Assembly: GCA_013003715.1 (NCBI GenBank)
Contig: JABDIN010000048.1
Location: forward strand, 1 to 64,000
Reading direction: 5' to 3'
Source: Desulfobacteraceae bacterium
Lineage (GTDB): Bacteria > Desulfobacterota > Desulfobacteria > Desulfobacterales > Desulfosarcinaceae
DNA: 64,000 bases
A program made the position numbers and the translations under genes. Under the pieces are notes generated by a model, which saw nothing but the letters and a program-made list of their open reading frames with translations, did not search any database and was not told the DNA's origin. Below are positions 44,841 through 56,304 of the stretch, one piece after another (position 1 is the first letter of the stretch; every line of letters begins with the position of its first letter).

Positions 44841-46379
44841 TCAGAGACCCTGGGCGGCTTTAACCGGGTGGTTTTTCAGGTATTCCAATCGATTCAGGCC
44901 ATTGATAAACGCATTGGCGCTGGCGGTGATGATATCCGCATCAGAACCGCGTCCCAAGGCCACCAGGCCGTTTTCCTTCAATCTCACGGTAACTTCCCCC
45001 TGGGCATCCGTACCGCCGGTTAAAGCGCTGACGGTAAATCGCACCAGTTCGCAGGTGGAGCCGGTGAGCTCCAGAATAGTGTTGAATGCAGCATCGATGG
45101 GACCGTTGCCATAGGCGGCGCCTTTCACGGAATCTCCGCGGGCGTCGAGTTGGACACTGGCCATGGGCAGGACCGTATTGCCGCTGGTGACATGGATATA
45201 GTTGAGTTTGAATATATCGGGCGTACGGAGAATGCCTTCGGTCACCAGTGCTTCGAGATCCTCATCCATGACGTGCTTTTTCTTGTCCGCCAAATCCTTG
45301 AACTTTTTGAATACAATATTGAGTTCTTCATCGGACAGATCGTAGCCCAGGTCTTTGAGATGCGTACGCATTGCATGACGGCCTGAATGTTTGCCCAGGA
45401 CCAGTTTGTTTTTATTCAGTCCAATGGTCTCAGGCTCCATTATCTCATATGTCATGGGGTTTTTCAGCATACCGTCCTGATGTATGCCGGCTTCGTGAGC
45501 AAACGCATTGGCACCGACCACGGCCTTATTGGGTTGTACCATGATGCCGGTGATCATGCTCACCAGCCGGCTTACCGGATATATTTTCCGGGTATTGATA
45601 TTGGTGGTGACCGGCAGATAATTGGCGCGGGTGTGCAAGGCCATGACCACCTCTTCCAGGGAGGTGTTACCGGCGCGTTCCCCGATACCGTTTATGGTGA
45701 CCTCTGCCTGGCGGGCACCGCAATTGATGGCGGAGATGGTGTTGGCCGTGGCCAGTCCCAGATCATTGTGGCAGTGGATGCTGAGAATCGCCTTATCGAT
45801 GTCAGGGGTGTGGGCCTTGATATATTTTACCAGCTCCGCGAACTCTTCGGGTATGGCATATCCTACGGTATCCGGGAGATTGATGGTGGTTGCCCCCGCT
45901 TCAATGACCGCCCCGAATACCGTGCACAAATATTCCCAGTCCGATCGGGATCCGTCCTCGGCGGAGAATTCCACGTTATCCGTAAGGGATTTCGCATAGC
46001 GCACGGCCTGGACGGCGGTATCGATTACCTGTTCGCGATTCATTTTAAGCTTGTATTTCAAATGAATGTCGGAGGTGGCGATAAAAGTATGTATCCTCGG
46101 TTTTTTAGCATGCTGTATCGCCGCCCACGCCCGGTCGATATCCTCCTTGCTCGTCCGTGCCAGTGCGGCTACCTGGGTTTTTTCGAGTTTTGCGGCGATC
46201 TTTGAAACCGCTTCGAAATCGCCGTCCGATGCAGCGGGAAACCCGGCTTCGATCACATCGACCCCCAGGTCTTCCAATTGCGTGGCCAGTCGCAGTTTTT
46301 CCGCGGTATTCATACTGGCACCGGGCGATTGCTCACCATCCCTTAAGGTCGTATCAAATATGATCACACGTTCCGTCAT
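44841..46379 (-). CDS. leuA: 2-isopropylmalate synthase
   Basis: A 512-residue DRE-TIM metallolyase that condenses acetyl-CoA with 2-oxoisovalerate in the first step of leucine synthesis. FDTTLRDGEQSPGASMN carries the DRE motif, SIHCHNDLGLATANTI the metal-binding His pair, and EVTINGIGERAGNTSLEEVV the conserved GERAG block. The C-terminal 120 residues form the leucine-sensing regulatory domain. AIN CGARQ and the 512-residue size fit the short bacterial LeuA. It is the last gene of the operon, separated from cimA by a 204-bp spacer with a GC-rich hairpin. Confidence 0.94.
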   Translation of the reverse strand: MTERVIIFDTTLRDGEQSPGASMNTAEKLRLATQLEDLGVDVIEAGFPAASDGDFEAVSKIAAKLEKTQVAALARTSKEDIDRAWAAIQHAKKPRIHTFIATSDIHLKYKLKMNREQVIDTAVQAVRYAKSLTDNVEFSAEDGSRSDWEYLCTVFGAVIEAGATTINLPDTVGYAIPEEFAELVKYIKAHTPDIDKAILSIHCHNDLGLATANTISAINCGARQAEVTINGIGERAGNTSLEEVVMALHTRANYLPVTTNINTRKIYPVSRLVSMITGIMVQPNKAVVGANAFAHEAGIHQDGMLKNPMTYEIMEPETIGLNKNKLVLGKHSGRHAMRTHLKDLGYDLSDEELNIVFKKFKDLADKKKHVMDEDLEALVTEGILRTPDIFKLNYIHVTSGNTVLPMASVQLDARGDSVKGAAYGNGPIDAAFNTILELTGSTCELVRFTVSALTGGTDAQGEVTVRLKENGLVALGRGSDADIITASANAFINGLNRLEYLKNHPVKAAQGL

Positions 46380-46466
46380 TGCTTTACTCCCTCACTTTTA
46401 TAAATTCAATATGAGTTAAAAATATATTTCAGCGTCATCACCGGTAAAGCAATGATCAAAGCAAAT

Positions 46467-46500
46467 GCCGCAAGGTGCCAGTGATATCACACCCTGCGGC
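46467..46500 (-). promoter_or_regulatory. Hairpin between cimA and leuA
   Basis: On the minus strand GCCGCAGGGTG pairs with CACCTTGCGGC over 11 bp with one G-U pair, around a 12-base loop that holds TGATATCA. ATTTGCTTT follows, a poor terminator run. It may weaken transcription into leuA or protect the upstream mRNA end. No Leu-rich leader peptide is seen after it. Confidence 0.4.
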
Positions 46501-46583
46501 GATAATCTCCACATCTAAACTATTTTTTATGTATATTATCAAAACTATAAATCCTCTTGATCATGTTTTTCATGCGTCCGGGT

Positions 46584-48215
46584 TTACACCGCCCGGCATT
46601 TTTTCTCACCATGTTTCTGCCGGGATTCTTTTGCCAGTTTGTATTGAAAACTGTCGGCCAACGCCTGCCAGCTTGCTTCAATGATATCTTCGGAAACACC
46701 GATGGTAGACCAGATTTCATCCTGATCCCTGGATTCGATGAGCACCCGCACCAGGGCTTCGGTGCCTTTACGGCCGTCGATCACACGTACTTTGAAATCC
46801 ACCAGTCGCATGGTATCCAGATCCGGGAAAAAACTTCCAAGGGCTTTTCTCAAAGCGTTATCGAGGGCACTCACCGGCCCCTGACCTTCAGCAGCGGTTA
46901 TTTCATGGTTGTCGCCCACCGCGATTTTCATGGTGGCATGCGCGGTACAGGGCCGGTCTTTGTCTTTTTCAATGGTCACGCGAAAGGCTTCCAATTCAAA
47001 CAACGGCTTGAATTGTTCGGTGAATTTTTCCAATAATATTTTCAACGATCCGTCCGCTGCATCGAATTGATATCCTTTTTCTTCAAGAGTCTTGATTTCA
47101 TCCACGATTTTCCGGCTGTCATAGCCATTGGCGCCCAGAACCACCCCCAGCTCCCTTGCCTTGTACTCCACATTGCTTTTTCCGGACAGGTCCGACACCA
47201 GCACCCGCCGAATATTTCCGACGGTTTCAGGGCGTATGTGTTCATAGGCCACCGGCATTTTCATGATGGCATTCACGTGGATCCCGCCTTTGTGGGCAAA
47301 AGCGCTACGGCCGACGAAAGGCCGCGAGTTCATGGGGGTCATATTGGCGGTCTCGCTTACGAATCTTGACAGGTTCTTTAATTTGGCGAGGTTAGCACTG
47401 GTGATGCAAGCGCTGCTCATTTTGGTGCACAGGATCGGAATAATCGATGTCAAATCCGCATTACCACAACGTTCACCATAGCCGTTTACAGTGCCCTGTA
47501 CCAATACCGCACCGGCGCGAACGGCTGAGACGGCGTTTGCAACGGCCAGGCCGCAATCATTGTGGGTATGTATGCCGAATTTCAGGCTAAGATCATCCGG
47601 AGCCACACCCTGGTGTTCCGCCAGCCTGTTGCGAACCGATTGCATGATGGATTCAATTTCAAACGGCAGTGAACCGCCGTTCGTATCACAAAGTACCAGA
47701 TATTCCGCCTTTCCCTCGATGGCGGCTTCAAGCGTCCGGACCGCATAGTCCGGGTCATCCTTGAACCCGTCAAAGAAATGCTCGGCGTCATAAATCACCT
47801 CACGCCCCTTGGCGTTCAAGTATTGGACACTCTCCCTTATCATGGCCAGGTTTTCCTCGGGCGAATTCTCCATTATTTCTTCAACATGAAGCATCCAGCT
47901 TTTTCCAAAAATGGCCACTGCTGGTGTTTCCGCCTCCAGAAGGGCTATCAGATTCTTATCCTCATGGCATTGTGAGTTTGGTTTGCGCGTGGCACCGAAT
48001 GCGGTCAACTTGCCGTTTTCAAATGATTCCCCACGGGCCATATCAAAGAAGGCCATGTCCCGGGGATTGGAGCCCGGCCACCCGCCTTCAATGTACTGGA
48101 TACCCAACTCATCCAACCGTTTGGCGATTTTCAACTTCTCAGCAGCGCTGAAATTGATGTTTTCTCCCTGTGTGCCGTCCCGCAAGGTGGTGTCGTATAT
48201 AAGCGTGGGTTCCAT
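46584..48215 (-). CDS. cimA: (R)-citramalate synthase
   Basis: A 543-residue DRE-TIM enzyme that condenses pyruvate with acetyl-CoA to citramalate, giving 2-oxobutyrate without threonine deaminase. The opening YDTTLRDGTQGENINFSAAE and GIQYIEGGWPGSNPRD (GGWPG in place of the GFP of LeuA) are typical of CimA, GIHTHNDCGLAVANAV carries the metal ligands, and VQGTVNGYGERCGNADL the conserved loop. A C-terminal LeuA-type regulatory domain follows. CAGGAG precedes the ATG. With ilvBNCD it makes isoleucine from pyruvate. Confidence 0.93.
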   Translation of the reverse strand: MEPTLIYDTTLRDGTQGENINFSAAEKLKIAKRLDELGIQYIEGGWPGSNPRDMAFFDMARGESFENGKLTAFGATRKPNSQCHEDKNLIALLEAETPAVAIFGKSWMLHVEEIMENSPEENLAMIRESVQYLNAKGREVIYDAEHFFDGFKDDPDYAVRTLEAAIEGKAEYLVLCDTNGGSLPFEIESIMQSVRNRLAEHQGVAPDDLSLKFGIHTHNDCGLAVANAVSAVRAGAVLVQGTVNGYGERCGNADLTSIIPILCTKMSSACITSANLAKLKNLSRFVSETANMTPMNSRPFVGRSAFAHKGGIHVNAIMKMPVAYEHIRPETVGNIRRVLVSDLSGKSNVEYKARELGVVLGANGYDSRKIVDEIKTLEEKGYQFDAADGSLKILLEKFTEQFKPLFELEAFRVTIEKDKDRPCTAHATMKIAVGDNHEITAAEGQGPVSALDNALRKALGSFFPDLDTMRLVDFKVRVIDGRKGTEALVRVLIESRDQDEIWSTIGVSEDIIEASWQALADSFQYKLAKESRQKHGEKKCRAV

Positions 48216-48332: not shown

Positions 48333-49382
48333 TTATTTTCTGTTCTCCGGTCTGAGGGACCTGACCGAAGTTCCGGTTTTCCACATTTCGGAATTGTGAA
48401 TTTCATCCAGTTCTTTTTTCAATTGTTCCCGGTAATCCGGAGCACTGTTACTGTCAAGCGTCCGTTTCGTCTCTTTTCCGGAGATGACACTCTCATACAA
48501 TTCATCGAATACCGGTGCGACGGCATCCCTGAATCTGGGAGACCAGTCCAGCGCTCCCCGTTGCGCCGTCGTGCTGCAATTGGCGAACATCCAGTCCATA
48601 CCATTCTCGGCCACCAGGCGGATCAGGCTCTGCGTCAGTTCTTCCACGGTCTCATTGAAAGCCTCGGAGGGGCTGTGCCCATGCTTGCGCAACAGTTTAT
48701 ACTGGGCTTCCATCACACCCGCCAGGCACCCCATCAAAACACCGCGTTCCCCGGTGAGATCACTGTAGACTTCATTTTCAAAGGTGGTTTGAAACAGATA
48801 ACCGGAACCTATGGCGATGCCCATCGCCAGTGTCCGGTCCTTGGCACGGCCGGTATGATCCTGATGTACGGCGAAGCTTGAATTGATACCGCTGCCGTCA
48901 AGGAAATTGCGCCGGACAGTCGTGCCCGATCCTTTGGGCGCCACTAGAATCACATCCACATCATCAGGGGGGATGATGCCGGTCTGATCCTTGTAAACGA
49001 TCGAAAAACCGTGTGAGAAATACAACGCATCACCCAGGTTCAGGCACTCTTTTACCTTCGGCCACATGGCCACTTGTCCTGCATCGGACAACAGGTATTG
49101 AATGGTGGTGCCGCGTTTGGCGGCTTCTTCGATGGAAAACAATGTCTTTCCGGGAATAAAACCGTCGGCAACGGCCCGGTCCCAAGATACGCCGCCTTCA
49201 CGCTGGCCGATGATAACATCGACCCCGTTATCGCGCATATTCAATGCCTGTCCCGGTCCCTGAACACCATATCCCAGTATGGCAACGGTTTCTTTTTTCA
49301 GGACGTCTCTGGCTTTTTCCAGAGTGAACTCCTCGGATGTGATCACTTCTTCAGTGGTGCCGCCAAAATCGATTTGAGCCAT
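48333..49382 (-). CDS. ilvC: Ketol-acid reductoisomerase
   Basis: A 349-residue class I KARI that isomerises and reduces acetolactate or acetohydroxybutyrate with NADPH. GYGVQGPGQALNMRDNGVD is the dinucleotide-binding loop, VILVAPKGSGTTVRRNF the next block, and DLTGERGVLMGCLAGVMEA holds the metal-binding Asp/Glu. AAAGGAG precedes the ATG. It lies between ilvN and cimA on the minus strand. Confidence 0.94.
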   Translation of the reverse strand: MAQIDFGGTTEEVITSEEFTLEKARDVLKKETVAILGYGVQGPGQALNMRDNGVDVIIGQREGGVSWDRAVADGFIPGKTLFSIEEAAKRGTTIQYLLSDAGQVAMWPKVKECLNLGDALYFSHGFSIVYKDQTGIIPPDDVDVILVAPKGSGTTVRRNFLDGSGINSSFAVHQDHTGRAKDRTLAMGIAIGSGYLFQTTFENEVYSDLTGERGVLMGCLAGVMEAQYKLLRKHGHSPSEAFNETVEELTQSLIRLVAENGMDWMFANCSTTAQRGALDWSPRFRDAVAPVFDELYESVISGKETKRTLDSNSAPDYREQLKKELDEIHNSEMWKTGTSVRSLRPENRK

Positions 49383-49515: not shown

Positions 49516-50076
49516 CTATTTTACCGGCGGCTCACGAAATAACGCAATGGCGCCGGTTCTTGCTATTTTTTTTATGCCCATGGGTTTGAGCAGATTGATG
49601 AGAGCCGTCATTTTTTCCTCATTCCCCGTGGCTTCAATGGTGTAATATTCGGGGCCCACATCAACGACCTTGCATCTGAAAATATCAACGATGCGGAGTA
49701 TTTCATCCCGGTCTCTGGGTTGGGCCCGCACGCAAATCAAGGCCATCTCCCGCTGCACCGCGCGGGTATCCGACAGATCCCTCAATTTGATGACGTTGAT
49801 CAGTTTTCGAAGTTGCTTCTCAATCTGTTCCATCAGCGGCGGGTCCGCCATGGTGACGATGGTAATCCGCGATACCATCGGATCGATGGTGGGCGCCACA
49901 CATAAACTCTCAATATTGAACCCGCGGCCGCTGAACAACCCAACCACCCGTGACAAAACACCGGGTTTATTATCCACCAGCATGGTAATCGTATGCTTTT
50001 CAATATCCACGATACGTTTCCTTTCCACCGCTTGCTCACTGGACCCCGTTGCCATTGGCGTGGTGATCCGATTCAA
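49516..50076 (-). CDS. ilvN: Acetolactate synthase small (regulatory) subunit
   Basis: A 186-residue regulatory subunit. The ACT domain starts HTITMLVDNKPGVLSRVVGL and includes FSGRGFNIESLCV and MVSRITIVTM, the valine-binding region, and the C-terminal half is the usual IlvH extension. The annotated start is TTG 50076, 24 bases after ilvB, with a poor ribosome-binding site, so translation is probably coupled to ilvB; ATG 50055 is an alternative. Confidence 0.9.
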   Translation of the reverse strand: MNRITTPMATGSSEQAVERKRIVDIEKHTITMLVDNKPGVLSRVVGLFSGRGFNIESLCVAPTIDPMVSRITIVTMADPPLMEQIEKQLRKLINVIKLRDLSDTRAVQREMALICVRAQPRDRDEILRIVDIFRCKVVDVGPEYYTIEATGNEEKMTALINLLKPMGIKKIARTGAIALFREPPVK

Positions 50077-50099: not shown

Positions 50100-51785
50100 C
50101 TATACCAACAGCATTTCAGTGATCGGTTCCCCCGCCGGTACCATGGGATAAACACATTCTTCCTTTTCAACCACAAAATCCATAATTACCGGGCCATTGT
50201 ATGCGAGGCCTTCCTTCAATACCGAGTCCACCTCATCAGGTTTCACGGCACGCAGTCCCTTTGCCCCATAGGCTTCCGCCAGTTTGACAAAATCCGGCGC
50301 ACAGTCCATACAGGTTGCTGCATAACGTTTTTGATAAAACAATTCCTGCCATTGGCGGACCATGCCCAGGTAGCCGTTGTTCAGGATGACAATTTTTACC
50401 GGGAGCTTGTGCTGAACCGCCGTGGCCATCTCCTGAATATTCATCTGGATGCTGCCGTCCCCGGCGATATCCACAACCAGACTGTCCGGAAATGCGGTTT
50501 GAGCGCCAATGGCCGCAGGCAGGCCAAACCCCATGGTCCCTAATCCGCCGGAAGTCAGAAACTGCTGAGGACGGTCGTAGTGGAAATACTGGGCCGCCCA
50601 CATCTGATTTTGTCCCACTTCTGTTGTGATGATGGCTTCCCCGGCAGTCAGGTCAAACAATCTTTCGATCACATATTGGGGTTTTATGGTTTTCTTTTGA
50701 ACATAGGCCAGCTTATGGGCGCGTTTCCATTCTTCGACCTGGTCCAGCCAGGGTTGCCGGATACCTGTAAGATCACCTAAGTCGGCTTTATCAATGAGCG
50801 AATTCAATTTTTTGAGACTCGTCTTGCAATCGCCCACAACAGGTACCGCCACCGAAATATTTTTGCGGATGGACGTGGGATCGATGTCGATATGAACGAT
50901 TTTGGCCTGTTCTGCGAAACAATCGGTTTTGCCGGTAACGCGGTCATCAAACCTCACCCCCACGGCGATCATCAGGTCGCAATGTCCGGTGGACATGTTG
51001 GCCCGATACGTTCCATGCATGCCGATCATCCCCAGGCTCAGCGGGTCGGACCCGGGGAATCCCCCCAACCCCATGAGGGACATGGTCACCGGTATTTTTG
51101 TTTTTCGCGCAAAGCGGCTGAGTTCCCCGGCCGCTTTCGACAGGATAATACCACCACCGGCAAAAATCATCGGCCGTTGTGCGGTTTTGATCAGATCAAC
51201 CACTTTTCGCAGTTGTTTGGCATTGGGTTCATATTTCGGATTGTAGGACTTGATTTTAACCGGTCCGAGTTTCTCATATTCTGCCGTACCGCTGGACACA
51301 TTCTTGGGAATATCGATCAGCACCGGACCCGGACGGCCGGATCGGGCGATGTGAAATGCTTCCTTGACGGTTTGCGCCAAATCGTCGGTACTGGCCACCA
51401 GATAATTATGTTTGGTGCAGGGACGGCTTATGCCGACGATATCAACCTCCTGAAAAGCGTCATTGCCGATCAGATGTGTCGGCACTTGTCCGGTGAGGAT
51501 CACCAACGGTATTGAATCCATGTATGCGGTCGCAATCCCGGTAACGGCGTTTGTGGCACCGGGACCTGATGTGACGAGGCACACACCGACCTTGCCGGAT
51601 GCCCTGGCATATCCATCGGCCGCATGAACGGCGCCTTGCTCATGACGAACAAGGACATGATGGATATCCGTATCCATCAGGGCATCATAAATGTCGATCA
51701 CCGTACCGCCGGGAAATCCGAAAATAGTGCCCACGCCTTCTTCTTTTAGCGCCTCTATTAAAATTTGCGATCCACTCAGTTTCAT
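50100..51785 (-). CDS. ilvB: Acetolactate synthase large (catalytic) subunit
   Basis: A 561-residue thiamine-diphosphate enzyme that makes 2-acetolactate and 2-aceto-2-hydroxybutyrate. FGFPGGTVIDIYDALMD opens it, HEQGAVHAADGYARASGKVG holds the catalytic Glu, and DIAGDGSIQMNIQEMATA is the ThDP-metal motif GDGS-x-N. VILTGQVPTHLIGNDAFQE is also typical. The start is ATG 51785, with a GGTGG site ahead, rather than the earlier 51818. ilvD lies 105 bp upstream on the same strand and ilvN follows directly. Confidence 0.94.
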   Translation of the reverse strand: MKLSGSQILIEALKEEGVGTIFGFPGGTVIDIYDALMDTDIHHVLVRHEQGAVHAADGYARASGKVGVCLVTSGPGATNAVTGIATAYMDSIPLVILTGQVPTHLIGNDAFQEVDIVGISRPCTKHNYLVASTDDLAQTVKEAFHIARSGRPGPVLIDIPKNVSSGTAEYEKLGPVKIKSYNPKYEPNAKQLRKVVDLIKTAQRPMIFAGGGIILSKAAGELSRFARKTKIPVTMSLMGLGGFPGSDPLSLGMIGMHGTYRANMSTGHCDLMIAVGVRFDDRVTGKTDCFAEQAKIVHIDIDPTSIRKNISVAVPVVGDCKTSLKKLNSLIDKADLGDLTGIRQPWLDQVEEWKRAHKLAYVQKKTIKPQYVIERLFDLTAGEAIITTEVGQNQMWAAQYFHYDRPQQFLTSGGLGTMGFGLPAAIGAQTAFPDSLVVDIAGDGSIQMNIQEMATAVQHKLPVKIVILNNGYLGMVRQWQELFYQKRYAATCMDCAPDFVKLAEAYGAKGLRAVKPDEVDSVLKEGLAYNGPVIMDFVVEKEECVYPMVPAGEPITEMLLV

Positions 51786-51889
51786 AATTCCACCTCGTTC
51801 CTCTAAGGTCGTATTCATTCAGTTCATTTCCCAATTTTTACGTTGTCCCTTTATACCGATATACCGAATGATGTTGTGGTGATTAATGT

Positions 51890-53572
51890 TTATCCGGGAC
51901 TACTCCGGACGATGGCGCCCAGGTGTGCGGAAGACACCATGCTGGCGTATCTCGCCATGTATCCGGATTTGATTTTGGGTTCCGGCGGTGTCCAGTCCGC
52001 CAGGCGTTGTTTGATGATATCCGGTGTCAACGAAACCGATATGGATTTGCCCGGAATATCGATCACAATTTCATCGCCATCTTCAACCATCGCCAACGGG
52101 CCACCGGTGGCGGCTTCCGGAGAAATATGGCCGATTGCCGCGCCTCTTGTGCCCCCGGAAAACCGTCCGTCCGTCAACAGCGCCACATGAGCATCCAGGT
52201 CCATGCCGGCGATGGCCGATGTCGGTGTGAGCATTTCCCGCATGCCCGGACCGCCCTTGGGGCCTTCGTATCGAATGACGATCACGTCTTTTTTCTGGAT
52301 GTCGCCTTCCATGATGGCACGGGTGGCGGCTTCTTCCGAGTCGAAAACCCGCGCCGGACCGCTATGGCGAAGCATGTCGTTGCATACGGCGGACTGTTTG
52401 ACCACGCATCCTTCCGGCGCCAGATTCCCGAACAGGACAGCCAGGCCGCCTTGCTCGTGGTAGGGGTGATCCACCGGCCGGATGACTTCCGGATCCGTTA
52501 TCTTCGCTGTTTTCAGTGTCTCTTTAAGCGGAGTACCGGAAACGGTCATGCATTCTTCATGAATGAGGCCCATACCATGGAGTGCTTTCATAACAGCCCC
52601 GATACCTCCCGCCCGGTTCAGATCTTCAATCCGGTGCGATCCGCCCGGGCTCAGGGCACATAGATGAGGTGTTTTCAGGCTGATCTCATTAATCTTATTC
52701 AATTCAATGGCCAAACCGGCCTCCCGGGCAATGGCGGTCAGATGCAGGACGGTGTTGGTGGAGCAGCCCAACGCCATATCGACAACCAGTGCATTTTCAA
52801 TGGCCTGGGGTGTCAGGATTTTCCGGGGGGTGATGTTGTTTTCCAGCAGATGAAGAATTTTCATACCGGTCTCTTTGGCCAATCGGATTCTGGCGGACAT
52901 CACCGCCGGAATGGTGCCGTTTCCGGGGAGGGCCATACCGATGGCTTCGGTCAGGCAATTCATGGAATTGGCCGTGAACATGCCGGCACATGAACCGCAA
53001 GTGGGGCAGGCGGCATTTTCAACCTCCTCCAATTGCGCCTCGGACATCCGTCCGGTTTTCACCGCGCCCACCGATTCAAATACGGTGATCAGATCGATTT
53101 TGCGCCGCCCGTTTTCAGTTGATATTTCACCGGCCAGCATGGGGCCGCCACTGATGAAAATGGCCGGCAGGTCCAACCGTGCAGCCGCCATTAGCATACC
53201 GGGAACGATTTTGTCGCAATTGGGGATGAACACCACGGCGTCCAGGGCATGTGCATTGACCATGACTTCCACGGAATCCGCTATCAACTCGCGGCTGGCC
53301 AGTGAATATTTCATGCCGTCATGATTCATGGAGATACCGTCGCAAACACCGATGGTACTGAATTCAATGGGGGTGCCGCCGGCCATGTAAATGCCGGCCT
53401 TGACCGCATCGGCTATTGTGTCCAGATGAATATGACCGGGTATGATGGTGTTCGATGCGTTGGCCACCCCGATCAACGGGCGTTCGATCTCTGTCCGGGT
53501 ATAGCCCATGGCTTTAAACAAAGATCGGTGGGGAGCTCGCTCAATTCCTTTTTTAACATTATCACTTCGCAT
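51890..53572 (-). CDS. ilvD: Dihydroxy-acid dehydratase
   Basis: A 560-residue iron-sulfur dehydratase acting after IlvC in valine and isoleucine synthesis. The cluster cysteines are visible in [16 protein letters not shown] and [19 protein letters not shown], and the conserved [15 protein letters not shown] and [20 protein letters not shown] are present. AGGA eight bases ahead supports ATG 53572. It is the first structural gene of ilvDBNC-cimA-leuA and follows the leader/attenuator. Confidence 0.95.
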
Positions 53573-53593
53573 GGACGGATTCCTTTTTTGCCC

Positions 53594-53633
53594 AAAAAAA
53601 ATCCGTTACCAGCCTTGGGGCTGATAACGGATT
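53594..53633 (-). terminator. Attenuator terminator ahead of ilvD
   Basis: On the minus strand AAATCCGTTATCAGCC pairs with GGCTGGTAACGGATTT over 16 bp with one G-U pair and a CCAA loop, followed by TTTTTTTT (the run overlaps the stem end). It begins 26 bases after the stop codon of the leader peptide and ends about 22 bases before ilvD, the layout of a ribosome-mediated attenuator. Confidence 0.85.
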
Positions 53634-53658
53634 TTGTGTTTTTCTGGGTGGTCTTTAG

Positions 53659-53757
53659 CTAAGCCATTATCATCCCCGGTGCCCCGTAGTCGCTAATAAG
53701 GACGACCACGAGGACAAGAATAAGAATAAGGGTGACAAGGACGAGCCGTGTATTCAT
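53659..53757 (-). CDS. Branched-chain operon leader peptide
   Basis: A 32-residue peptide, MNTRLVLVTLILILVLVVVL then ISDYGAPGMIMA. Twenty of its residues 5-21 region and nearby are Leu, Ile or Val in an almost unbroken run, the hallmark of an ilv leader whose translation senses charged Leu, Ile and Val tRNAs. The E. coli ilvGMEDA leader has the same length and a similar glycine/alanine end. A strong terminator follows. GAGGAG lies 14 bases ahead of the ATG, a long spacing. If ribosomes stall in the run, the terminator should not form and ilvD is transcribed. Confidence 0.85.
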   Translation of the reverse strand: MNTRLVLVTLILILVLVVVLISDYGAPGMIMA

Positions 53758-53787
53758 GATAATTTAAAAATCTCCTCAATTACGGGA

Positions 53788-53816
53788 GCGATAACAAAGG
53801 CGGGGTAGGATGTCAA
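53788..53816 (-). promoter_or_regulatory. Candidate promoter of the ilv leader transcript
   Basis: On the minus strand a perfect TTGACA (53816-53811) is followed after 17 bases by TATCGC, or after 16 by TTATCG, a weak -10. The predicted RNA would start some 20-25 bases before the leader peptide ATG. Confidence 0.45.
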
Positions 53817-54030: not shown

Positions 54031-56304
54031 TCAGAGAGGTTCCCTGTGACCGCATTCCTTGTTAATGCAGATGAGAAAAGTTCCATTTTTTTTGGTGGTT
54101 TTTTCGGTCATTATCTCAGCATCGCAGGCCGGGCACCGTTTGTTCACGGGCATATCCCAGGTGGCGAAATCGCAGTCGGGATATTTATTGCAGCCATAAA
54201 ATATCTTTCCCCGCCGGGAGCTCTTCTCAACAACATCTCCCTCACACCCCTTCTGGGGACATTTGACACCAATTGATTTCCCGTTCGCGGTTGAAGTCAA
54301 AGAACGCGTATTTTTACAATCCGGATATCCCGAGCAGGCCAGGAATTCACCATATTTGCCTCTTTTGACGACCATATTATTGCCGCACTGGCTGCATTTT
54401 TCATCGGTAACGGTCACTTCGGCGGGTTCCACGGTTTGAATACGGCCTTTTTCATCCCGTACATAATCTCTGGAGTAGGTACATTCCGGATAACCGCTGC
54501 ATGCCAGGAAATGACCATTTTTCCCGATTTTAATGCTTAACTTGTTCTTGTTGCATTGCGGGCAAATTTTATCTGTTGGGAGCCCGACGCCTTTTACACT
54601 GACCATTTCCCGGGAAGCGTTGTCCAGACTGTCCTTGAACGGGCCATAGAATTGGTTCAGCACGTTAAGGGCTTCAATTTCCGCACCCTCGACACGGTCC
54701 AGATCGTTTTCCAACTGGGCGGTAAAGGCCACATCTAAAATGCCGGGGAAATTATCGACCAGCAACTCATTGACGATGTATCCGAGTTCGCTGGGACGAA
54801 AATAACCACTTATCAGATCCACATACCCCTTGTCCCGGATCGTGGATAAGATACTGGCATAGGTGCTGGGCCTGCCGATACCGTTCTCTTCGAGTTCCTT
54901 GACCAGTGATGCCTCCGAGAAGCGTGGCGGTGGCTGGGTGAAATGCTGCTTGGGGTCGATTTTTTCCGGCCTTAGTGTCTGGCCCTCCGAGAATTCCGGT
55001 AATTCCTGTTTCTTTTTCCCTTTTTCGTCTTCCTGATCGGCGGATAGGTAAACTTTCATGAAACCCTGAAACTTGGTGGTGGAACCGCTGACGGTGAAGG
55101 TATAATCGCCCGCTTTTATCGACACCATTTTCTGGTCGACCAACGCTTGTGTCATCTGGGAAGCGACAAATCGCTGCCATATCAATTTGTACAATGACAA
55201 TTGATCACGATTCAGATGTGGTGCCACTTTTTCCGGTGTATTCCAGACTGATGTCGGCCGTATGGCCTCATGCGCATCTTGCGCTTTTTTCTTATTTTTA
55301 AAATACCGGGGTTTCTCCAAGGCATAGTTATCCCCGAATTTATCCCGGATCAGAGATTGCGCTTCCAACGCGGCTTCCTCTGCGATCCGGATGGAATCGG
55401 TTCTCATATAAGTGATCAATCCGACAGGTTCAGCCGGTCCCAAATCAATGCCCTCATACAATTGTTGGGCAACCACCATGGTTTTTTTAGCGGAATATCT
55501 AAGTTTGCGGATTGCATCCTGCTGCAATTTGCTGGTGATAAACGGGGGAAGCGGGTTCTTGCGTATGGTTCTGTTAACGATTTTATCAACGACAAACTGG
55601 GCAGCGTTCAGATCATCGAGTATTTGATCGGCCGCCTCCTTGTTCGGGATATGAATTTTTTTACCGTCTTTTTTCACCAATTTGGCGTCAAAGGCGGGTG
55701 GCAGTTCACCATTGAGCAGGGCGGTGATTGACCAATATTCTTCCGGTTCGAATGCCTGAATGGCCCGTTCACGATCGCAAATGATTCGAACCGCTACGGA
55801 TTGTACACGACCTGCGCTTAACCCTCCCTTTACCTTTCGCCATAACAGGGGTGAAATCTGGTATCCCACAAGCCTGTCCAGGATGCGCCGGGCCTTTTGC
55901 GCCTCGTATTTATCCTTGTTCAAGGTTTCCGGCGACGCCATGGCCTTGTGAATTGCGTTTTTCGTGAGTTCATGGAACAAGACGCGATGAAAAGTACGGT
56001 CTTTCTTTTTCAGTACCTCCGCTGTGTGCCAGGCAATGGCTTCTCCTTCCCGGTCCGGGTCGGGGGCGAGGTATATGTCCTTGCAGTCACCTGCAGCGGT
56101 CTTCAATGACGAGATCACCTTCTGCTTGCCTTTTATGGCCCGGTATTTCGGTTTGAATCCATCTTCGATATCAATACCGATCTCTTTTTCGGGCAGATCG
56201 CGGATATGTCCCACTGTGGCAGCCACATTATATTCACCGCCCAGATATTTTTTTATTGTTCGCACCTTCGTTGGTGACTCAACAACGACTAATGGTTTTG
56301 CCAC
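54031..56304 (-). CDS. topA: DNA topoisomerase I
   Basis: A 757-residue type IA topoisomerase that relaxes negative supercoils. The Toprim domain starts LVVVESPTKVRTIKKYLG, with DPDREGEAIAWHT as its acidic motif, and the catalytic Tyr is in GLITYMRTDS near residue 300. The C-terminal part has three complete four-Cys zinc ribbons (starting CPQCNKNK, CSQCGNNM, CPQKGCEG) and a fourth (CPACDAEI ... CINKEC). The start is GTG with GAGG seven bases ahead. It follows dprA, a common pairing. Confidence 0.95.
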   Translation of the reverse strand: MAKPLVVVESPTKVRTIKKYLGGEYNVAATVGHIRDLPEKEIGIDIEDGFKPKYRAIKGKQKVISSLKTAAGDCKDIYLAPDPDREGEAIAWHTAEVLKKKDRTFHRVLFHELTKNAIHKAMASPETLNKDKYEAQKARRILDRLVGYQISPLLWRKVKGGLSAGRVQSVAVRIICDRERAIQAFEPEEYWSITALLNGELPPAFDAKLVKKDGKKIHIPNKEAADQILDDLNAAQFVVDKIVNRTIRKNPLPPFITSKLQQDAIRKLRYSAKKTMVVAQQLYEGIDLGPAEPVGLITYMRTDSIRIAEEAALEAQSLIRDKFGDNYALEKPRYFKNKKKAQDAHEAIRPTSVWNTPEKVAPHLNRDQLSLYKLIWQRFVASQMTQALVDQKMVSIKAGDYTFTVSGSTTKFQGFMKVYLSADQEDEKGKKKQELPEFSEGQTLRPEKIDPKQHFTQPPPRFSEASLVKELEENGIGRPSTYASILSTIRDKGYVDLISGYFRPSELGYIVNELLVDNFPGILDVAFTAQLENDLDRVEGAEIEALNVLNQFYGPFKDSLDNASREMVSVKGVGLPTDKICPQCNKNKLSIKIGKNGHFLACSGYPECTYSRDYVRDEKGRIQTVEPAEVTVTDEKCSQCGNNMVVKRGKYGEFLACSGYPDCKNTRSLTSTANGKSIGVKCPQKGCEGDVVEKSSRRGKIFYGCNKYPDCDFATWDMPVNKRCPACDAEIMTEKTTKKNGTFLICINKECGHREPL

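Follow-up and report, generated by a model that had tools for sequence, protein, structure and literature searches.

Results

Genes and leader parts at the locus

The window, i.e. the whole 64,000-nucleotide stretch of DNA that we analysed, belongs to a 5.5 Mb genome assembled in 115 contigs, from the same family as Desulfatitalea alkaliphila (G001). On its minus strand lie six genes of branched-chain amino acid (BCAA) biosynthesis, ilvD-ilvB-ilvN-ilvC-cimA-leuA, all identified with NCBIfam models (Table 1). The earlier note had described them as a complete BCAA operon; the six genes stand, but "complete" was an overstatement, as leuB, leuC, leuD and ilvE are absent from the operon. The same six-gene order follows the leader in 16 of 20 relatives, in each of which 10 kb were read. 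In two of the other four, the sole ilvC-like match is a distant one behind leuA; one has an insertion behind ilvD, and in one not every gene was found within the stretch. In two loci from family f18 of the order (L257 and L264) the operon reads ilvD-ilvB-ilvN-cimA-leuA, and the only ilvC-like match, at 27-29% identity, is distant and lies behind leuA; this suggests that ilvC was replaced in this family. A second attenuator before leuA was sought at 46360-46610, a region holding neither an ORF rich in Leu, Ile and Val (LIV) nor a strong terminator.

Three parts previously placed ahead of ilvD on this strand, a TTGACA promoter, a 32-residue LIV peptide and the ilvD ribosome-binding site, all lie where they had been located, and the terminator hairpin with its T-run is likewise present, with 17 pairs instead of the 16 claimed. 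We aligned the ilvD upstream regions of the host family together with 100 loci of the order; the family relatives keep the promoter as TTGAC-N-TG-n-TA, with TTGAC and TGnTA at the same distance, and a transcript start is predicted near 53781. Given the long distance of the Shine-Dalgarno-like GAGGAG from the leader ATG, initiation of the leader ORF could be weak; an in-frame ATT occurs at 8 nt spacing from this motif (53777-53755), and start-codon use is uncertain. The terminator is nearly palindromic and carries A-runs on its 5' side (53571-53641, plus strand), and therefore the covariance model of the element, R1, gives a match on the opposite strand as well (E = 0.004). The hairpin could work in both directions.

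Table 1. Positions of the leader elements and neighbouring genes within the window.
Feature	Position	Strand	Description	Evidence
topA	54031..56304	-	upstream gene	
Promoter	53788..53816	-	TTGACA 53816-53811, 17-nt spacer, extended -10 TGT+TATCGC 53796-53788 (-10 box TATCGC 53793-53788)	sequence; kept in relatives
Shine-Dalgarno-like GAGGAG of leader ORF	53772..53777	-	14 nt to ATG, long spacing	sequence
Leader ORF	53659..53757	-	MNTRLVLVTLILILVLVVVLISDYGAPGMIMA, 32 codons + TAG	sequence; equivalent LIV-rich ORFs in relatives; chance test
Regulatory codon run	53695..53745	-	17 codons, 16 of them Leu/Ile/Val	sequence; stall-zone calculation
Region 1 (approximate)	53728..53742	-	leader-ORF stretch, predicted partner of region 2 until region 3 is transcribed	fold
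Region 2	53664..53677	-	GGGGATGATAATGG, antiterminator 5' arm, overlaps ORF end	pairing and covariation
Region 3	53617..53630	-	CCGTTATCAGCCCC, common to antiterminator and terminator	pairing and covariation
Intrinsic terminator hairpin (regions 3 and 4)	53598..53635	-	AAAATCCGTTATCAGCC-CCAA-GGCTGGTAACGGATTTT, 17 bp, loop CCAA	sequence, fold, covariation
Terminator T-run T8	53594..53601	-		sequence
ilvD ribosome-binding site	53581..53585	-	AAGGA, 8 nt 5' of ATG at 53572	
ilvD, dihydroxy-acid dehydratase	51890..53572	-	first structural gene	NCBIfam TIGR00110 above cut-off
ilvB, acetolactate synthase large subunit	50100..51818	-		NCBIfam TIGR00118 above cut-off
ilvN, acetolactate synthase small subunit	49516..50076	-		NCBIfam TIGR00119 above cut-off
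ilvC, ketol-acid reductoisomerase	48333..49382	-		NCBIfam TIGR00465 above cut-off
cimA, citramalate synthase	46584..48215	-		NCBIfam TIGR00977, 690 bits (cut-off 450)
leuA, 2-isopropylmalate synthase	44841..46379	-		NCBIfam TIGR00973, 725 bits (cut-off 599)

Conservation of the leader peptide

When sought separately, the LIV ORF and the terminator were both present in 121 of 128 loci of the family and order. The hydrophobic peptide, whose absence from relatives the earlier note had named as refuting its reading, is thus kept in type (MKNxxxIINLISLIIVLVVGIL...EExG), and the few loci without the element lack either the terminator or the LIV ORF at this place before ilvD. The leader ORF of the window reaches 12 LIV in 12 residues, whereas the best ORF had 9 in 12 when the upstream 300 nt were shuffled 1000 times with dinucleotides preserved. 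An ORF with at least 9 in 12 is present in 93% of 121 relatives, compared with 0.5% for shuffled sequences and 3% for reverse strands. For the leader, the folding energy gave a z-score of -4.65, with none of 200 shuffles equally good.

The rarity by chance of LIV ORFs of such quality bears on a reading in which the hairpin would be the terminator of topA and the leader ORF a coincidence. topA does end on the same strand, some 270 nt ahead of the leader ATG; however, a conserved promoter stands between topA and the leader ORF, and topA was found upstream of ilvD in none of 25 family relatives (with mostly about 1.5 kb examined), nearly all of which keep the whole element. As topA is missing from the stretches examined upstream of ilvD in these relatives, this very improbable reading was rejected.

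Codon usage in the regulatory run of the window is uneven: its seven Leu codons are all CTT or CTC, five of its six Val codons are GTC and its three Ile codons are all ATT. Across 20 family loci, leader Leu codons were 52% CTT and 43% CTC (95% together) with 1% CTG, compared with 57% CTG and 26% CTT/CTC in the ilvD genes of the same loci, and relative to ilvD the leader is shifted to ATT for Ile and away from GTG for Val. Strong codon bias is known from attenuator leaders and has been explained by selective charging of isoacceptors (PMC1183508); an alternative account, not separated from this one here, holds that codons poor in G prevent folding of the leader. The codon content is consistent with an element that would sense all three of Leu, Ile and Val.

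At the 3' end of the leader, region 2 is read in two main frames, mostly with a stop inside (TGA of TTGATAATGG, or TGG TAA) in 80 loci and read through as ..LIMA before the stop in 38, the other three loci being read otherwise. Despite this change of frame, the leader stop codon is almost always within the ribosome's reach of region 2. The use of two reading frames over a retained region 2 indicates that selection there acts on the RNA, the peptide not being conserved. This bears in turn on the idea that the product of the ORF is a small hydrophobic membrane peptide with a function of its own, the hairpin being a terminator that is either unregulated or under independent regulation. A hydrophobic peptide of about 30 residues that is widespread is what such a reading would predict, but L, I and V interchange freely among the leader peptides, their length varies, their C-terminal frame changes over a conserved RNA, their Leu codons are restricted to CTT/CTC, and the genes inspected behind the ORF are BCAA genes. 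We consider it hardly credible, if a shade more so than the topA reading. In addition to attenuation, the leader peptide may have a role in trans, by analogy with the trp leader peptide, for which PMC7298713 gives a precedent (peTrpL).

Covariation of the alternative helices

The consensus sequence of region 3 (CCGTTATCAGCCC) can pair either with region 2 (GGGTTGATAATGG) or with region 4 (GGGCTGATAACGG). The resulting antiterminator (2:3) is mutually exclusive with the terminator (3:4), whose 5' arm it overlaps, and in the window their energies are -15.3 and -25.0 kcal/mol, respectively. An antiterminator pairing had been suggested earlier as something to look for, and the 2:3 helix is found and covaries: in 64 sequences, 92.2% of its cells are paired and seven pairs show two-sided changes, with a covariation score of 0.131 against 0.096 in shuffles that was reached by none of 500, bearing in mind that related sequences inflate covariation and that relatedness is left in by both the shuffle and the permutation controls. 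Sliding the partner by one to three columns left only 21-59% pairing. The 3:4 helix covaries likewise in 64 relatives, the count of its further pair types being unexceptional (32 of 500 shuffles). For both helices, own partners beat all 5000 permutations in 115 distinct triples anchored on the consensus sequence. The core of regions 2, 3 and 4 is mostly near-invariant, and the covariation comes from a minority of positions. Matched changes can be followed in individual loci, namely L138 (region 2 GGTGATGG, region 3 CCGTTACC) and L101 (GGTAATGG, CCGTTACC, GGTAACGG), and the core of genome G415 is compensated (CCCGCTATCAGG with CCTGATAGCGGG). Furthermore, thermodynamic calculation over 121 loci gave a mean pairing of region 2 with the upstream leader of 0.84, versus 0.57 with shuffled upstream sequence; this pairing with the leader ORF before region 3 is made would supply the 1:2 helix of the classic scheme.

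A terminator preceded by conserved sequence, ahead of a BCAA operon, could also belong to a metabolite-binding riboswitch or a T-box, and ppGpp riboswitches have been reported for ilv genes of other bacteria (PMC10272879, PMC8632094), which we counted in favour of this reading. Against it, the leader carries LIV codons, the conserved sequence in the alignment is limited to the 2:3 and 3:4 pairing regions with no further aptamer-like region, and Rfam 15 gave no gathering-level match in the window and none in the leader even with E allowed up to 1. For want of any Rfam match the riboswitch or T-box reading was rejected, and we hold it to be about as improbable as a topA terminator.

Stall geometry and proposed mechanism

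For each codon, we took away the RNA as far as 13 nt beyond the A site (an assumed ribosome footprint) and computed the pairing of the remainder up to the end of region 3. The mean probability of the 2:3 helix was 0.86-0.89 with the ribosome stalled at any codon from the start to the end of the LIV run; closer to region 2 it dropped, to 0.69 at a distance of four codons, 0.17 at three and 0.03 at two, and it was about 0.2-0.3 with the ribosome at the stop codons. The end of the LIV run thus coincides with the end of the permissive zone. With region 4 left out, the antiterminator in the window is favoured even when no ribosome is present (0.88), and behaviour without translation would therefore depend on kinetics.

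What the sequence shows, from the parts and their ability to pair to covariation, conservation and the fit of the stall positions, supports the classic ilv attenuator layout recognized by the earlier note: the parts stand in the expected order, the antiterminator covaries and the stall geometry fits. We consider it highly probable (about 0.93) that the element acts as a ribosome-mediated transcription attenuator with the classic three hairpins. The course of events is inferred as regards the start of the transcript, in vivo termination, the response to starvation and the dominant amino acid: RNA polymerase would start near 53781 and a ribosome would begin the 32-codon leader ORF. With charged Leu, Ile and Val tRNAs plentiful, the ribosome would reach the stop codon and cover region 2, so that region 3 would pair with region 4 and transcription would end at about 53594. 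If any of the three were short, the ribosome would stall in the regulatory codon run and cover region 1; region 2 would then pair with region 3, no terminator would form, and ilvD-ilvB-ilvN-ilvC-cimA-leuA would be transcribed.

Distribution of the element

The covariance model R1 was built from 64 loci, and the counts obtained with it are thus partly training data: the element was detected in 27 of the 30 genomes of the family and, at the level of the order, in 212 of 242 genomes sampled (good genomes: 139 of 147). It also occurs in a few families outside the order. Nearly every clear match with an inspected downstream gene heads BCAA genes. Outside the order, the element stands before cimA (L221, L222, L224, L229, L231-L233, L235, L236), leuA (L227, L234) or ilvB (L239, L240), each copy with a leader ORF of 8-11 LIV in 12 residues. 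That cimA shares this control had been proposed from the window alone; the element directly before cimA in other families of the phylum bears this out, and control of cimA is therefore no accident of the window operon.

Two copies were found where the pathway is split, one before cimA and one before ilvB-ilvC-ilvD in G437, one before ilvB and one before cimA in G293. G504 likewise has two copies (before leuA-ilvB-ilvN-ilvC and before cimA), the leader of the second being weaker (7 in 12). Within the order, G047 has no element before ilvD and carries copies before ilvB and before cimA instead. In the window's own genome, the sole R1 match besides the element and its reverse strand is a plain terminator with no LIV leader (E = 0.6), and no copy turned up in viral contigs. 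One family genome has a second copy (L324, G014:C1:5551494-5551578) whose core (GGGGCTCTTAGTGG) resembles that of Desulfobacula; it has a LIV leader and is followed by a gene that by eye appears to be a relative of 2-isopropylmalate synthase; this element was possibly transferred along with its gene.

Discussion

The attenuators of the E. coli ilvGMEDA (ilvL) and ilvBN operons resemble the element in their Leu/Ile/Val-rich leader, their alternative antiterminator and terminator hairpins and the BCAA genes that they precede. The E. coli ilvL peptide also has 32 residues, with its run ending at about residue 20. In contrast to E. coli, the gene set in the window is ilvD-ilvB-ilvN-ilvC-cimA-leuA, with isoleucine made by way of citramalate, the leader and stem sequences are apparently unrelated, and the 2/3/4 core of the window type is conserved in sequence over the order. 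Comparative predictions of BCAA attenuators in proteobacteria, of the same class, were reportedly made by Vitreschak et al. in 2004 and Lopatovskaya et al. in 2010. The literature covered, with these two studies outside its scope, gave no description of attenuation with cimA or in this delta-proteobacterial group; a few delta-proteobacterial ilv leaders may have been predicted in the two studies.

Among other phyla, the Corynebacterium ilvBNC leader, known as the ilvB-II motif (PMC10272879) and given a three-hairpin model (PMC11857589), shares a uORF with BCAA codons and an antiterminator/terminator pair before BCAA genes. It differs in sequence as well as in phylum, and its uORF has 15-17 codons with BCAA mainly at four positions, whereas leaders of the window type are some 30 codons long with a run of 16. 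The ilvB-OMG motif and the ilvB motif of Leptospira, which PMC10272879 reinterprets as uORF attenuators, are alike in their BCAA-rich uORF before ilvB; no Rfam family matches the window element, which sets it apart from these motifs if Rfam 15 includes them. Multiply pairing attenuator patterns conserved over large distances have been described in proteobacteria (PMC1262725), and such a long-range conserved pattern is seen in the window family too.

LIV leaders also occur elsewhere. In Veillonella (L076, Veillonella sp. R32, and L283-L288), six of seven genomes have a leader of 49-50 codons (MLGLVVVIISLLIIIDII...) with a good ribosome-binding site, about 290 to 405 nt upstream of ilvD and in several cases followed by a terminator (GACGATTCTTYGGAATCGTC-T7). 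A Veillonella-only "ilvD motif" has been listed as a weak riboswitch candidate (PMC8632094); assuming that the published motif coordinates overlap these leaders, it is probably a BCAA leader-peptide attenuator. Short LIV-rich ORFs were further observed before ilvD in Calditrichia (L072, L073), Neomarinimicrobiota (L075, L077; L075 with a clear terminator after the ORF) and CSSED10-310 (L081). These lack the CCGTTATCAG core and may therefore have arisen independently.

The mechanism is known, and the family is likely to be new. With due reserve, we favour the view that it is an undescribed Desulfobacterota attenuator family, nearly universal in one order, whose core (GATAATGG / CCGTTATCAG / CTGATAACGG) was kept while the element was moved or copied to the head of the BCAA unit of each lineage (ilvD, ilvB, cimA or leuA), and which would couple the citramalate route to the charging of the few isoacceptors reading CUY, AUU and GUC. 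A covariance model is now at hand for this family, which is absent from Rfam. Its occurrence in more than 200 genomes with different operon heads offers material on how attenuators are inherited, and copied when operons split, and the family also allows one to ask why leader Leu codons avoid the common CTG. The near-universal rule points to probable control of BCAA synthesis in a large order of anaerobic, largely sulfate-reducing bacteria, a control that takes in the citramalate route to isoleucine, which enterics lack.
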